Source: Ruegeria lacuscaerulensis
Lineage (GTDB): Bacteria > Pseudomonadota > Alphaproteobacteria > Rhodobacterales > Rhodobacteraceae
Assembly: GCF_013034685.1 (NCBI RefSeq)
Contig: NZ_WQGO01000001.1
Coordinates: 496,001-560,000, forward strand
Length of the DNA: 64,000 nt
Direction of reading: 5' to 3'
Shown one piece after another: positions 45,152 to 51,300 of this stretch; positions within the stretch are counted from its first letter, which is position 1, and each line of letters begins with the position of its first letter. The position numbers were made by a program, and so were the translations under genes. The notes below the pieces were generated by a model. It was not told the DNA's origin. It saw only the letters and a list, made by a program, of their open reading frames with translations, and did no database searches.

Positions 45152-45639
45152 TGCCCAAGCTGGATCTCTCTCAGATCCCGTTTATTGGGGGATCGTCTTA
45201 TCCCGGTAAGCTGGCCGAGGCGACCGCAGGTCGTTTCGTTCAGCGGCTGGGGGATACGGGCGGTCTGACCCAATACGGGGTCAACATCGTACGGTTGGAG
45301 CCTGCGGGGATGTCCTCGCTGCGGCACTACCACATGGAGCAGGACGAGTTCGCCATTGTGCTTTCCGGCACCTGCACATTGATCGACGACGATGGTGAGC
45401 ATGAGATGCAGCCCGGTGACTGCGCGGCCTGGCCCGCAGGTGAGCCCAACGGCCACCACCTTGTGAACAAAACCAACGCGCCCGCGACCTTTCTGGTGGT
45501 GGGCACGCGGACCCCGACCGAGACCGGCTTTTACAGCGATATCGACATGATGGTGAAGGATGACGCCGACGGCGAGGCCTTCACCCGGAAAGACGGCAGC
45601 CCGCTGACGGCTGACCAGATTGGAGATGACAATGACTGA
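45151..45639 (+). CDS. Cupin-domain protein in the beta-oxidation operon
   Basis: 162 residues with a single cupin barrel: SLRHYHMEQDEFAIVLSGTCTLID (motif 1 with two histidines and a glutamate) and PNGHHLVNKTNAPATFLVVG (motif 2 histidine). Metal-binding residues appear intact, but no catalytic role is known. Wedged between fadA and fadB with overlaps at both ends (one base and eight bases), so it is translated with them. Confidence 0.87.
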   Translation: MPKLDLSQIPFIGGSSYPGKLAEATAGRFVQRLGDTGGLTQYGVNIVRLEPAGMSSLRHYHMEQDEFAIVLSGTCTLIDDDGEHEMQPGDCAAWPAGEPNGHHLVNKTNAPATFLVVGTRTPTETGFYSDIDMMVKDDADGEAFTRKDGSPLTADQIGDDND

Positions 45640-47833
45640 TTTCACTCTGACCAAAGACGCAGACGGCGTCGCCACGATCACCTGGGACGTTCCAGGTAAG
45701 ACGATGAACGTAATGTCCTTTGACGGGCTGGCCCAGCTGAGCGACCTGATCGATCAGGCGCTGGCGGATGAGGAGGTCAAGGGGATCGTCCTGACCTCGG
45801 GCAAAGAAGGGTCGTTTGCGGGCGGCATGGACCTGAACCTGCTGGCTGTGATGAAGGAACAGGCAGGCGACAACCCGGCCAAAGGTCTGTTTGACGGCAC
45901 GATGCAAATGCACGCCCTTCTGCGCAAGATCGAGCTGGCCGGCATGGACCCCAAGACCAAGAAAGGCGGCAAGCCGATCGCAACCGCCCTGCCCGGCACT
46001 GCCGCAGGCATCGGCATGGAGTTGCCTCTGTCCACGCATCGCATTTTCGCTGCCGAGAACCCCAAGGCGAAATATGGCCTGCCCGAGATCATGGTCGGCA
46101 TCTTCCCCGGCGCGGGCGGCACCACGCGGATGGTCCGCAAGGTGGGCGCGATTGCAGCGGCACCGCTGCTGCTGGAAGGCAAGATGCTGGACGTCAAAAA
46201 GGCCAAAGGCGCAGGCTATATCGATGAGATCGCTGCAGATCCGGTGGCAGCCGCAAAGGAATGGGTGCTGAACGCGAAAGACACCGATCTGGTCAAGCCG
46301 TGGGATGCCAAGGGCTATAAAATGCCCGGCGGTGCGCCGTACCACCCTGCAGGTTTCATGAACTTCGTTGGCGCCTCGGCGATGGTACACGGCAAGACCC
46401 AAGGCGCCTTCCCGGCGGCCAAGGCGTTGCTGAGTGCAGTTTATGAGGGGGCTCTGGTTGACTTCGACACCGCGCTGAAGATCGAAGCGCGCTGGTTCAC
46501 CTCAGTCCTGATGAACCCGTCCTCGGGTGCCATGATCCGGTCGCTGTTCCTGAACAAAGAAGCGCTTGAGAAAGGCGCAGTACGTCCAGCCGGTGTGCCG
46601 GATCAGTCGGTCAAGAAGATCGGCGTTCTGGGTGCGGGCATGATGGGTGCGGGCATCGCGCTGGTCTCGGCCCAGGCCGGGATGGAGGTTGTTCTGGTCG
46701 ATCGTGATCAGGCGGCTGCCGATAAAGGCAAAGCCTATACCGAGGCTTATCTGGACAAGGGCATGAAGCGCGGCAAAGTCACCGAAGACAAGAAACAGGC
46801 GATGTTGTCGCGCATCACCGCAACGCCCGATCTGGACCACCTGAAAGGCTGCGACCTGATCATCGAAGCCGTGTTCGAAGACCCTTCCGTCAAGGCCGAG
46901 ATGACCCAAAAGGTCGAGGCGATCATCCCCGAGGATTGCATTTTTGCCTCGAACACCTCGACCCTGCCGATCACCGATCTGGCCAAGGCCAGCGTTCGGC
47001 CCGAACAGTTCATAGGCATTCACTTCTTCTCGCCGGTTGAGAAGATGTTCCTGGTTGAGATCATCAAGGGCAAGGAAACCGGCGATCGTGCGGTTGCCAA
47101 GGCGCTGGACTATGTGCGCCAGATCCGCAAGACGCCGATTGTGGTCAACGATGCACGCTTCTTCTACGCTAATCGCTGCATCATCCCTTACATCAACGAA
47201 GGTCTGCGGATGATAACCGAGGGCGTCAGCCCGGTGCTGATCGACAATGCCGCGCGTCAGCTGGGCTTCCCCGTAGGGCCGATCCAGTTGAATGACGAAA
47301 CCTCGATTGATCTGGGTGCCAAGATCGCGCGGGCGACCAAAGCTGCGATGGGCAACGCCTATCCCGAAAGCCCCGCCGATGACCTGATCTTCTGGATGGA
47401 AGGCGAAGGCCGTCTGGGCCGCAAGGCCAATGCAGGCTTCTTCGACTATGACGAAAAGGGCAAACGCGTCGCATACTGGACCGGCCTGGCCGAGAAATAC
47501 CCGCATGCCGAAGAGCAGCCCGACCTGATCGAAGTACAGGAACGCCTGATGTTCGCGCAGGTGTTGGAAGCTGTCCGCGCGTTGGAGGAAGGTGTTCTGG
47601 AAGACATCCGCGAAGGCGATGTGGGCGCCATCCTGGGTTGGGGCTTTGCGCCGTGGTCCGGTGGCCCGCTGAGCTGGCTGGACATCATCGGCACACCTTA
47701 TGCGGCTGAACGTTGCGATCAGTTGACCGAAGCCTACGGTGAACGCTTCACCTGCCCGCCGCTGCTGCGGGAAATGGCGGAGAAGGGTCAAAGCTTCTAC
47801 GGGCGTTTCGACCCCGAAGCCAAAGCGGCCTAA
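45632..47833 (+). CDS. fadB: 3-hydroxyacyl-CoA dehydrogenase/enoyl-CoA hydratase FadB
   Basis: 733 residues. N-terminal enoyl-CoA hydratase domain (about 1-290) with GSFAGGMDLNLL and VGIFPGAGGTTRM; then NAD-binding (about 325-500) with GVLGAGMMGAGIALVSAQAGMEVV and IHFFSPVEKMFLVEI; then the dehydrogenase C-terminal domains. Start ATG 45632 is best spaced from GGAG at 45622; ATG 45626 is also possible. Followed by a strong terminator. With FadA it forms the core beta-oxidation complex. Confidence 0.96.
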   Translation: MTDFTLTKDADGVATITWDVPGKTMNVMSFDGLAQLSDLIDQALADEEVKGIVLTSGKEGSFAGGMDLNLLAVMKEQAGDNPAKGLFDGTMQMHALLRKIELAGMDPKTKKGGKPIATALPGTAAGIGMELPLSTHRIFAAENPKAKYGLPEIMVGIFPGAGGTTRMVRKVGAIAAAPLLLEGKMLDVKKAKGAGYIDEIAADPVAAAKEWVLNAKDTDLVKPWDAKGYKMPGGAPYHPAGFMNFVGASAMVHGKTQGAFPAAKALLSAVYEGALVDFDTALKIEARWFTSVLMNPSSGAMIRSLFLNKEALEKGAVRPAGVPDQSVKKIGVLGAGMMGAGIALVSAQAGMEVVLVDRDQAAADKGKAYTEAYLDKGMKRGKVTEDKKQAMLSRITATPDLDHLKGCDLIIEAVFEDPSVKAEMTQKVEAIIPEDCIFASNTSTLPITDLAKASVRPEQFIGIHFFSPVEKMFLVEIIKGKETGDRAVAKALDYVRQIRKTPIVVNDARFFYANRCIIPYINEGLRMITEGVSPVLIDNAARQLGFPVGPIQLNDETSIDLGAKIARATKAAMGNAYPESPADDLIFWMEGEGRLGRKANAGFFDYDEKGKRVAYWTGLAEKYPHAEEQPDLIEVQERLMFAQVLEAVRALEEGVLEDIREGDVGAILGWGFAPWSGGPLSWLDIIGTPYAAERCDQLTEAYGERFTCPPLLREMAEKGQSFYGRFDPEAKAA

Positions 47834-47912: not shown

Positions 47913-48560
47913 CTAATCAAAGCGATACCCAAACCTGTCGACATCCTCGGCGCAAGCCTCGGCCACAGCCGCACGTGTCTTGGCGCAATAGTAACTGCGA
48001 TAATCCGGTGCCCGCTCGGACCTGTTGCTCAGGGGCAATGCCACCCGAAATCCCAAATGGTCGAATAGCGGGGCGGCGTCTCGGTCAAAATACTCCAGCC
48101 GGATGAAGGCACTGCAATGTTCGGTTCCGTCGGTCAGCGTCATATAGCGCCTTGCGGGATTGGCTGCGAAGGATCGTGCAATCTGCGGGTGCAAGACGAA
48201 ATCCTGAAATGAAAGGGTTTGCGCCAAGGTGACATCCCGGTGGTCAAACTTTTGGGTTCTGAGCCAATGATAGTAGCTGACCATCCTGTCCCAAGGGTTG
48301 CGCACCAGCGTGAACGTGAACATGCCGCGCAACGCAACCGGTGTCATCAGCCCATCCAGCGCAGAAAGCGGTGCGTGTTTCGTCAAAGCGCCAACGCCTG
48401 TCAAAGCCTTCTGCCGCTTGCGCCGCCGTAGGGCCTTGGGTGTATCGCCTATAAGGATATCATCCTTCATAGCCCGCGCCTCTAACGCCAGAGACAGCGA
48501 CGTTCCCCCGGTTTTGGGGATGTGGACAAACACGTATCTACGGCCATTTGAGATGATCAT
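47913..48560 (-). CDS. Sulfotransferase family 2 protein
   Basis: 215 residues. PAPS-binding loop YVFVHIPKTGGTSLSLALEA at the N-terminus and TLVRNPWDRMVSYYHWLR in the middle are the sulfotransferase family 2 marks. Start at ATG 48560, which overlaps the DMT stop by ATGA; a longer frame upstream runs into the DMT gene and is rejected. Probably modifies a sugar or surface polymer; acceptor unknown. Confidence 0.88.
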   Translation of the reverse strand: MIISNGRRYVFVHIPKTGGTSLSLALEARAMKDDILIGDTPKALRRRKRQKALTGVGALTKHAPLSALDGLMTPVALRGMFTFTLVRNPWDRMVSYYHWLRTQKFDHRDVTLAQTLSFQDFVLHPQIARSFAANPARRYMTLTDGTEHCSAFIRLEYFDRDAAPLFDHLGFRVALPLSNRSERAPDYRSYYCAKTRAAVAEACAEDVDRFGYRFD

Positions 48561-49492
48561 GCCGCCGCCTGCTCGGCGGGCGCGCGACCAGCCCGCCAGC
48601 CCAGCAGCGCTCCGGCGGTCGCGATCAGACCAATCCCTCCGATCTGCATCAGCCCGATGGATTGACCAAAGGCGACCCACGCAAACAGGGGGCCGAAAAT
48701 CATGACCGAGTATTCGAACACTGCAACATAGGATGGCTCGCCTACCTGATAGGCTTTGATCAGCATGAAAACCGCGATTGTTGACCCTACAGCCTGCACG
48801 ATGATCCATGGCACAGCGTCTTGCATCTGCCACACCCAGCCACGCGTGACAAACCCGTCGGGCCCTGGGGGCGATATCATGGGGAAGAGGGTTAGAACCC
48901 CCACTCCGATCAATCCCGTCAACCCCAGTGTGATCACCATCGCCGCCAACAGCGCGACTGTGCTTTCACCCGCGCAATGGCTGCGCGTGATGATGGCGCT
49001 GAGGGCATAGAACAACCCTCCGGCCACCGGCAGCAGGGTGCGGGCATCAAAATCCTGCGGATTGGGTTGCAGCACGCATAGAATCCCAGCGAACCCCAGT
49101 AGGACGGCCAGAATGCGCCATGGCCCGATCCTCTGCCCCATTGCAAGCGTCGAAATCAGCAGCACGAAAATCGGAGAGGTGAACAGACCTGCCAGCGCCT
49201 GCGCAATCGGCATCAGCGCCAGCGAGGTGAAATAGAACAGCATGGCCAGCGTGATCAGCACACTGCGTAGCATCACCGGACCCGGCCGGACGGGACGCAA
49301 GCGCCCGAATCCCAACAAGGACAAGCCGATGATCAGCGGCAGCATCAGGGTGGACCGGCTCAGGTGGAACTGCCACAGCCCGACCGTGTCGGCCAGCAGG
49401 ATCACTACGTTGTCGATCACCCCGATGATCGCCATTGCGCTGACCATCAGAACCGAGGCCAGGATCGGAGAAGTTTGCGCACCAGACGACAT
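48557..49492 (-). CDS. DMT superfamily transporter (EamA)
   Basis: 311 residues with about ten membrane segments in two EamA repeats (residues about 10-140 and 155-300). The second half contains EPSYVAVFEYSVMIFGPLFAWVAFGQ, typical of the drug/metabolite transporter group. Start ATG 49492, with AGGGTC upstream; the frame continues to 49558, but the extra residues are atypical. First gene of the leftward pair with the sulfotransferase and divergent from the gene at 49648. Confidence 0.9.
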   Translation of the reverse strand: MSSGAQTSPILASVLMVSAMAIIGVIDNVVILLADTVGLWQFHLSRSTLMLPLIIGLSLLGFGRLRPVRPGPVMLRSVLITLAMLFYFTSLALMPIAQALAGLFTSPIFVLLISTLAMGQRIGPWRILAVLLGFAGILCVLQPNPQDFDARTLLPVAGGLFYALSAIITRSHCAGESTVALLAAMVITLGLTGLIGVGVLTLFPMISPPGPDGFVTRGWVWQMQDAVPWIIVQAVGSTIAVFMLIKAYQVGEPSYVAVFEYSVMIFGPLFAWVAFGQSIGLMQIGGIGLIATAGALLGWRAGRAPAEQAAA

Positions 49493-49647
49493 GTTTGACC
49501 CTATTGCAGAAACCGACCGGGGCACGCCTGCGCCCGGATGCGTCGTCACATCCAGCACAATTCCCCGACATCGCGCAACAGGTTTGCGCCGCTGGATTTT
49601 TGCGTGCTAAACTGCCGCCAATCAAGAATGAGCAGACCTCACCCGTG

Positions 49648-50661
49648 ATGACGGCCCTTAAACAGTACCAGCGGATCGAAGCAACCGGTCTGTGGCGCCC
49701 ATCGCCCGATGTGCAGCGGCGCGAGGTCGTGGTGTCGATTGGCGAAGCCACGATGACAATCTCGGATTTCAACGACAACGCGCTGACCCATTGGTCGCTG
49801 GCTGCGCTGGAACGGCAGAACCCCGGCGCATATCCGGCCATCTACAATCCCGATGGCGATCCGGACGAAACGCTGGAGCTGGCCGAAACCGAGACCACCA
49901 TGATCGAGGCGATCGACCGCCTGCAACGGGCCATTGACCGCGGCCGTCCGCATCCGGGGCGATTGCGCTGGCTCAGCGTCGCCGGTGTTGCCGCCGCCGT
50001 CTTGGCCCTTTTGGTGTTCTGGGTGCCCGCCGCCGTGCAAAACCACGTGGTCGCTGTGGTGCCCGAGATCAAACGCCACGATATCGGCGACGCAATTCTT
50101 GAACGGATCGAGCGCGTGTCAGGCCGCGCCTGCGCCTCGGTCGACGCACAGGACGCGCTGAAACAGTTGGCCACACGTACCGGTGTGCGTGAAGTGGTTA
50201 TCCTGCCTGCGGGCGTGCAAACGAGCCTCAGCCTGCCGGGCGGCATTATCCTGCTAAACCGCGCGTTGGTCGAAGATCACGAGGACCCTTCGGTCGCCGC
50301 CGGCTATATCGTCGCCGAACGCGCCCGGTCACAGGCACAGGACCCGCTGGACGATCTGCTGAACCGCACAGGTGCTGCAACCGCCTTTCGCCTGCTGACG
50401 ACCGGAGAGCTGACACCGGGCATCGTCGATGCCTATACCGAAGAGGTTCTGTCCGAACCCCGTCCGTCCCTACCTGATGACGTGTTGCTGGAAATGTTCG
50501 CGCAGACCGCCCTGCCCTCGACCCCGTTTGCTTATGCCAAGGATGTGACCGGCGAAACCGTGCTGGGGTTGATCGAGGCTGACCCTATGGCCGGACGTCC
50601 TCAGCAGCAGGTTCTGCCGGACCGCGATTGGGTCCGGCTGCAAAATATCTGCGGCGGTTAG
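49648..50661 (+). CDS. Membrane protein related to M48 peptidases but lacking HExxH
   Basis: 337 residues. Domains: an N-terminal soluble part (about 1-105, with PDVQRREVVVSIGEATMTISDF), one membrane segment (about 108-128), and a periplasmic part. The latter contains VPEIKRHDIGDAILERI, then SLPGGIILLNRALVEDHEDPSVAAGYI, which matches the M48 pattern around the active site. Where HExxH should stand the sequence reads AERAR (residues 223-227, bases 50314-50328); the glutamate is kept but both zinc histidines are gone. I infer a non-catalytic relative. GTG 49645 is an alternative start. No known role. Confidence 0.75.
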   Translation: MTALKQYQRIEATGLWRPSPDVQRREVVVSIGEATMTISDFNDNALTHWSLAALERQNPGAYPAIYNPDGDPDETLELAETETTMIEAIDRLQRAIDRGRPHPGRLRWLSVAGVAAAVLALLVFWVPAAVQNHVVAVVPEIKRHDIGDAILERIERVSGRACASVDAQDALKQLATRTGVREVVILPAGVQTSLSLPGGIILLNRALVEDHEDPSVAAGYIVAERARSQAQDPLDDLLNRTGAATAFRLLTTGELTPGIVDAYTEEVLSEPRPSLPDDVLLEMFAQTALPSTPFAYAKDVTGETVLGLIEADPMAGRPQQQVLPDRDWVRLQNICGG

Positions 50662-50667
50662 ACCAGC

Positions 50668-51300
50668 TTACTTCGTGCCAAACATCCGGTCGCCCGCATC
50701 GCCCAGCCCCGGCATGATGTAGCCCTTGGAATTCAGCTCGCGATCCAGCGAGGCCGTGACGATATGCACATCCGGGTGCGCCTCTTTCATGCGTGCGACC
50801 CCTTCGGGCGCGGCCAACAAGCAAAGGAAGCGAATATCAGTGGCGCCAGCCTCCTTCAGCAGATCTATCGCCGCGGCTGAACTGTTGCCGGTGGCCAGCA
50901 TCGGATCAACGGCAATGACCAGACGGTCCTTCAACCCTTCGGGCGCTTTGAAGTAATACTGCACGGGCTTGAGCGTTTCCTCATCGCGGTAGAGGCCGAC
51001 AAAACCCACACGGGCCGAGGGGATCAGCTCCAGCACCCCGTCCAGCATCCCGTTTCCGGCCCGCAGGATCGACACCAGCGCCAGTTTCTTGCCCGCTAGG
51101 ATAGGGGCGTCCATTTCCTCCATCGGGGTTTCAATGTGGCGGGTGGTCAACGGCATCTCGCGCGTGATCTCGTAGGCCAGCAGCAGCGTGATCTCACGCA
51201 GCAACTGCCTGAAAACGGCGGTCGAAGTGCCCTTGTCCCGCATGAGCGTCAGTTTGTGCTGCACCAGCGGGTGGTCAACGACGGTCAGGTGTTCGCTCAT
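50668..51300 (-). CDS. upp: Uracil phosphoribosyltransferase
   Basis: 210 residues. Converts uracil and PRPP to UMP. PRPP loop [22 protein letters not shown] near residue 125 and the C-terminal [14 protein letters not shown] are diagnostic for Upp. Last gene of the salvage operon, coupled to add by a four-base overlap. Confidence 0.97.

Follow-up and report, generated by a model that had tools for sequence, protein, structure and literature searches.

The 64,000-nucleotide stretch of Ruegeria lacuscaerulensis DNA analysed here (the window; contig NZ_WQGO01000001.1, positions 496,001 to 560,000) carries a gene for a membrane protein which comparison with its relatives identifies as a predicted pseudopeptidase, derived from an M48 zinc peptidase that was anchored in the membrane and had a pleckstrin-homology-like (PH-like) N-terminal domain. 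By descent and predicted fold the protein is a member of Peptidase_M48 (PF01435), but not a catalytic one. An earlier note on this stretch had proposed an M48 peptidase with a lost zinc site, and that interpretation is borne out by profile comparison, by the predicted fold, by homology that is collinear over the full length, and by relatives that form a graded series. The intact frame and the M48 layout that it described, i.e. VPEIKRHDIGDAILERI, LPGG, and one membrane helix, are likewise present:

49648–50661, + strand: complete gene for a zinc-less, predicted M48-fold membrane protein of 337 residues, from the ATG start at 49648 to the stop at 50661 with no internal stop
49648–49956, + strand: N-terminal PH-like domain, residues 1–103, DUF7092-like by descent
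49960–50019, + strand: single membrane helix, residues 105–124, from the predicted model (H105–124) and the sequence, with RPHPGRLR just before it
50059–50658, + strand: M48-fold domain, residues about 138–337, presumed periplasmic
50131–50133, + strand: Cys162, common to zinc-less and HExxH relatives
50233–50244, + strand: LPGG, residues 196–199, a retained M48-like motif ahead of the former active-site helix
50314–50328, + strand: AERAR, residues 223–227, at the HExxH position
50650–50652, + strand: Cys335, common to zinc-less and HExxH relatives

When hhalign was used to compare the profile built from 120 zinc-less relatives (A2) with that built from 74 HExxH relatives (A3), the two matched with a probability of 100 and an expectation value (E) of 6.9e-48; the aligned region of 346 columns begins at the N-terminus and extends through the final cysteine. 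AERAR lies opposite HEIGH in this alignment, and the segment that bears the third zinc ligand is shortened in A2, with no glutamate facing that ligand. The corresponding position (Glu201 in BepA; Glu288 in the Pikeienuella piscinae protein P0121) is a gap for the window protein in an alignment of 210 rows, and in both alignments the HPx4R motif, described as an active-site plug (PMC7950410), falls in a deletion of the window protein; the loss thus goes beyond what the earlier note saw. The stretch from PGG to the site has the same length in the window protein and in the HExxH relatives, which, together with the full-length match, indicates that the M48 likeness is more than chance. Without the two histidines and the third glutamate, the protein is not expected to act as a hydrolase by the M48 mechanism. 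The claim that the motif glutamate remains while both histidines are lost holds for the window protein, but the glutamate is not strictly kept among its relatives, being present in 99/120 (window protein included) and 82/120 of two sets of best-listed zinc-less relatives.

In the predicted structure (predicted local distance difference test score, pLDDT, 91.9) a PH-like domain, modeled as a barrel of strands with a helix at its C-terminal end closing it, is followed by one membrane helix and an M48 fold. The topology is probably N-in, C-out, and a disulfide between Cys162 and Cys335 is possible. Cys162 is present in 120/120 of each of three best-listed sets (two zinc-less, one HExxH), Cys335 in 120/120 and 120/120 of the zinc-less sets and 119/120 of the HExxH set, and Trp328, like the two cysteines, in at least 119/120 of each; Pro197 and Gly198 are invariant in alignments A1 and A2. 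Pfam places the HExxH group above cut-off as M48 plus DUF7092 (88.5 and 25.1 bits), and the HExxH profile matches the solved structures 3c37 (E 1.2e-35) and BepA (E 1.9e-19). The A2 profile reaches 3c37 at E 0.05, which alone is not significant. DUF7092 (PF23368) is not matched by the window protein; it is matched at E<=0.01 by 4/120 relatives, the best at 4.9e-6, and two HExxH relatives exceed the cut-off. Weak Pfam rows of relatives (GNAT, Phage_Bbp19, TetR_C_15, LYR) were discarded as chance. Among the named relatives, the nearest are “hypothetical proteins” of Ruegeria, and one relative, Cribrihabitans marinus P0095, carries the source name “Peptidase family M48”.

Relatives of the window protein number 1630 at E<=1e-3 among 7994 scored candidates. 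We sampled 295 genomes of the family, taken as Rhodobacteraceae in the GTDB sense (the NCBI taxonomy places Ruegeria in Roseobacteraceae and Pikeienuella in Paracoccaceae), and 289 of them have a match. Where the site letters were read as zinc-less or half lost (HAMGH, genome G263), this concerned 61 of the 289, source genome included; six genomes (G008, G054, G101, G162, G194, and G276) have a best match read as carrying HExxH. With HExxH forms among the matches, zinc-less genomes number somewhat fewer than 289. HExxH occurs in 0/120 and 0/120 of the best-listed zinc-less relatives (0/240), as against 120/120 of the best-listed sister set, and in close relatives, for which the earlier note had raised the question, it was not seen, occurring in deep branches only. 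The source genome itself (4.6 Mb, 33 contigs) gives one match to the window protein, and a plasmid search returned one record, from Pseudorhodobacter turbinis, at 39.6% identity.

Living intermediates bear on how the site was lost. Alignment rows were stretches with a score >40 and a span >230 residues, 253 of which collapsed to 210 unique sequences, with Ruegeria over-represented; a rooted tree was built from 78 of the 210 rows with the motif columns excluded, and a second from 69 rows after nine long-branch rows had been dropped. One clade (support 100/99) has HEIGH members (L215, L057, and L055) at its base, followed by a HAMGH form (L059), then HELAH (L056) with PAVAE (L194), then HALAQ (L061), and finally the zinc-less crown; one step is weakly supported (97/65), and L056 and L194 are of unusual letter make-up. 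Pfam M48 scores are 87.4 for L215, 88.5 for L057, 33 for L059, 40.1 for L056, and 17.9, which is under the cut-off, for L061, with none for the window protein. L056 has HExxH and the third glutamate, with the plug histidine replaced by aspartate, and L059 has both histidines and the third glutamate, with the catalytic glutamate replaced by alanine. Parts of the site were therefore lost singly, and the order of these losses was not always the same. Under parsimony there are two changes, and a single common loss is not rejected (approximately unbiased test, p-AU 0.20); a single loss of the zinc site is neither needed nor excluded. Among distant relatives and deep branches the former site varies freely.

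The zinc-less protein is under purifying selection. The median ratio of non-synonymous to synonymous substitution rates (dN/dS) of its gene is 0.089 (568 of 903 pairs from 43 sequences, with dS 0.1–1.5), and comparison genes give 0.022 (upp), 0.051 (add), 0.063 (deoB), and 0.111 (EamA). This value and the near-universal matches agree with the view, taken in the earlier note, of a gene that is selected rather than decaying. By part, dN/dS is 0.058 for the N domain, 0.113 for the membrane part, and 0.098 for the C domain. When pairs were matched at a total identity of 0.507 in both sets, zinc-less pairs were 61% identical in the N domain and 43% in the core (residues 181–232), their least conserved region, whereas HExxH pairs were 47% identical in the N domain and 67% in the core. 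The peak of conservation in the zinc-less protein is thus the PH-like domain and not the former catalytic core.

Presence of the catalytic motif goes together with a particular neighbor. Among the 210 unique sequences, 77 of the 79 with HExxH are immediately preceded by a DUF898 gene, and 0/131 of the others are. At one exception, L056, the gene immediately upstream is a diverged DUF898 (54 bits), which was entered by hand as present in the contrast analysis, and the other, L251, has a TrmL-like methyltransferase gene (our reading) at this place; among the 131 zinc-less rows, L023 offers <800 upstream bases, where a DUF898 gene could be missed. At the level of genomes, DUF898 is found in 98/295 and an HExxH-class match (E<=3.2e-45, the motif being read in part of them) in 86/295, 85 of these 86 having DUF898; the odd one is the HAMGH genome G263. 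HExxH is present in all 30 loci of the HExxH-class search (26 read, plus repeats of L057, L055, L062, and L064). Thirteen DUF898 genomes lie outside the HExxH class, and in 11 of them DUF898 is followed immediately by a different M48-like gene with HExxH; in the remaining two, the M48 gene is cut by the contig end (G142) or no M48 is present in the stretch examined (G207). The DUF898 match outside the class contains one TAG in G292 and in G140. A second class of DUF898 gene (L260–L270 and L273; E 8e-87 to 6e-114) is directly followed by an HExxH M48-like gene of 345–390 residues, and the DUF898-M48 pairing is therefore wider than the protein family studied here. No DUF898 gene was found in the source genome at E<=10.

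Two neighbors of the zinc-less gene, named according to our reading, serve as context:

45620–47833, + strand: fadJ-like gene, a synteny anchor common to some HExxH relatives
50668–51300, − strand: upp-like gene, the convergent neighbor

The zinc-less gene and the upp-like gene are 6 bases apart in the window, and, within the flanking DNA covered, upp was found at 79/80 and fadJ at 66/80 of the named loci. At two loci (L141:9354–10805 and L151:9046–10248) a Thr/Pro-rich gene with, in our reading, a SPOR-like end separates the zinc-less gene from upp. HEIGH forms lie near fadJ in G162, G008, G194, and G017, as does the HAMGH form in G263; G162 falls inside the main clade, and G008, G194, and G017 split off earlier. 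The gene order in G162 is fadJ, an acyl-CoA-synthetase-like gene, DUF898, and M48, and that of many zinc-less loci is fadJ, a synthetase-like gene, and the zinc-less gene, with no DUF898. By score, the synthetase-like genes separate into two classes (about 200–270 and 500–1050 bits) and therefore need not be orthologous. Where many relatives have the synthetase-like gene, the window has a sulfotransferase-family frame (47913–48833, − strand; PF03567, 26.8 bits) and an EamA transporter (48557–49558, − strand), which stand between fadJ and the zinc-less gene. At L043, L044, L053, L058, L060, and L063 the zinc-less frame starts a few bases from the end of the same-strand synthetase-like frame, and the two may be translationally coupled. 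A scan of the + strand from 49400 to 50800 found no promoter-like site.

We favor, with modest confidence, the proposal that the window protein is a non-catalytic membrane adaptor descended from a DUF898-partnered M48 peptidase, with its PH-like and pseudo-M48 domains binding on either side of the membrane; the adaptor is favored because the PH-like domain is the most tightly kept part. Once released from its partnership with DUF898, such a protein would have turned into an adaptor. Its PH-like domain, presumed to be cytosolic, would contact a conserved partner, either protein or lipid, and its pseudo-M48 domain, presumed to be periplasmic and possibly closed by a disulfide, would bind or sense an external factor; a signal or complex would thereby be held across the membrane. 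A fuller history, which we advance only tentatively, is that the DUF898 and M48 genes together make up a membrane module, with the DUF898 protein as obligate partner or substrate of the peptidase, that loss of DUF898 removed the need for catalysis and the zinc site was stripped piecewise, and that the PH-like cytosolic domain led to a trans-envelope adaptor in most of the bacterial family.

Several results count against these proposals. The earlier note had named the lack of a profile match to M48 as evidence against its reading, and with the single window protein Pfam M48 indeed gives no row at E<=10, although the profile and structure comparisons succeed; the Pfam scan of the protein returned nothing near cut-off (MFS_2 and DUF3040 only, far below), the NCBIfam scan gave no match, the best of four rows in a PDB sequence search had E 0.62, and 0/120 A2 members match Pfam M48 at E<=0.01. 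The DUF898 counts, moreover, are not independent: the tree yields only two contrasts, each of which goes the way expected (sign test p 0.5). Fisher values for these counts disregard relatedness and were given no weight as proof.

A periplasmic chaperone, in which the pseudo-M48 domain would bind unfolded envelope proteins via its edge strand and the LPGG region and aid their assembly, is the principal competing explanation, but we consider it rather unlikely. LPGG and the flanking strand are retained, and the edge strand beside the active site of BepA is reported to be needed for chaperone-like activity (PMC8423444); likewise, sugar beet RF1-Oma1 has HQVGH in place of HExxH, and its HExxH copy is described as unable to bind preSATP6 (PMC6894571). 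However, the low conservation of the core relative to the N domain is unexpected if substrate binding were the main job, and the protease-dead BepA variant E137Q has weakened, not normal, chaperone-like activity (PMC8423444). Regulation of another M48 peptidase, e.g. through mixed complexes or substrate competition, seems improbable. Pseudoenzymes sometimes regulate active relatives (PMC11266112), and the source genome has three further M48 matches above the Pfam cut-off, which are possible targets, but these differ in layout, and an HExxH-class match occurs in fewer than a third of the sampled genomes; no second copy of the same class was found in the source genome, where regulation of a close paralogue is therefore unlikely. 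A weak fourth M48 hit (L004:1114–2202, − strand; genome G000, contig C23) is, in our reading, a membrane protein of M56/BlaR1-like type that carries HELQH and is encoded next to a BlaI-like regulator.

Continued enzymatic function, through a metal site that escaped detection or through other chemistry, is very improbable: A2 does contain invariant polar residues, including His48, Arg105, Arg107, Cys162, Asp325, Gln332, and Cys335, but, as a fairly weak counterargument, the first three lie outside the M48 domain and the former site is freely variable among distant relatives. That same variability, along with the loss of the catalytic site, might suggest a decaying remnant without function, an explanation to which we give the least credence, given a dN/dS between those of add and the adjacent EamA and matches in nearly all sampled genomes, at least six of which are HExxH forms.

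Metallopeptidase pseudoenzymes are already known as a kind (PMC11266112), although “M48” is absent from the main text of that review. The open-access literature searched held nothing on DUF7092, on a pseudopeptidase in Rhodobacteraceae, or on DUF898 together with M48; none of the matches listed for YjgN/DUF898 had such a term in title or abstract, and pseudoprotease with M48 returned only protozoan protease surveys and a plant transcriptome. Broader searches led to general papers on pseudoenzymes and proteases. Nor was a family-wide bacterial M48 pseudopeptidase with living half-lost states and a candidate partner loss found there. Within one bacterial family, HExxH forms coexist with half-lost and fully lost ones, some of them sharing a syntenic locus; loss of DUF898 as a partner is a candidate trigger, and the shift of constraint to a different domain can be measured. 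The DUF898-M48 pairing is a testable lead for DUF898/YjgN, and, if the adaptor role is true, a widespread envelope protein now called hypothetical would gain a function.

The closest known systems are the DUF7092-M48 metallopeptidases, e.g. P. piscinae P0121, which are presumably catalytically active. They share with the window protein full-length collinear homology, the PH-like N domain, the membrane helix, the M48 fold, both cysteines, and a C-terminal WVxLxxIC stretch, but differ in that they keep HExxH, the third glutamate, and HPx4R, pass the Pfam M48 cut-off, and lie nearly always behind DUF898. Escherichia coli BepA is a zinc protease with a tetratricopeptide repeat (TPR) domain (PMC7950410); in contrast, the window protein has no zinc ligands, a PH-like domain, and a membrane helix, and no TPR was found in it. 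RF1-Oma1 is, like the window protein, an M48 descendant without consensus HExxH, but there the motif glutamate alone is replaced, in a plant gene beside an HExxH copy (PMC6894571), whereas here both histidines are also gone, across a bacterial family. The loss of zinc ligands with retention of the fold and of binding roles, as proposed here, is also described for other metallopeptidase pseudoenzymes, namely ADAMs, FtsHi, and alpha-MPP (PMC11266112).
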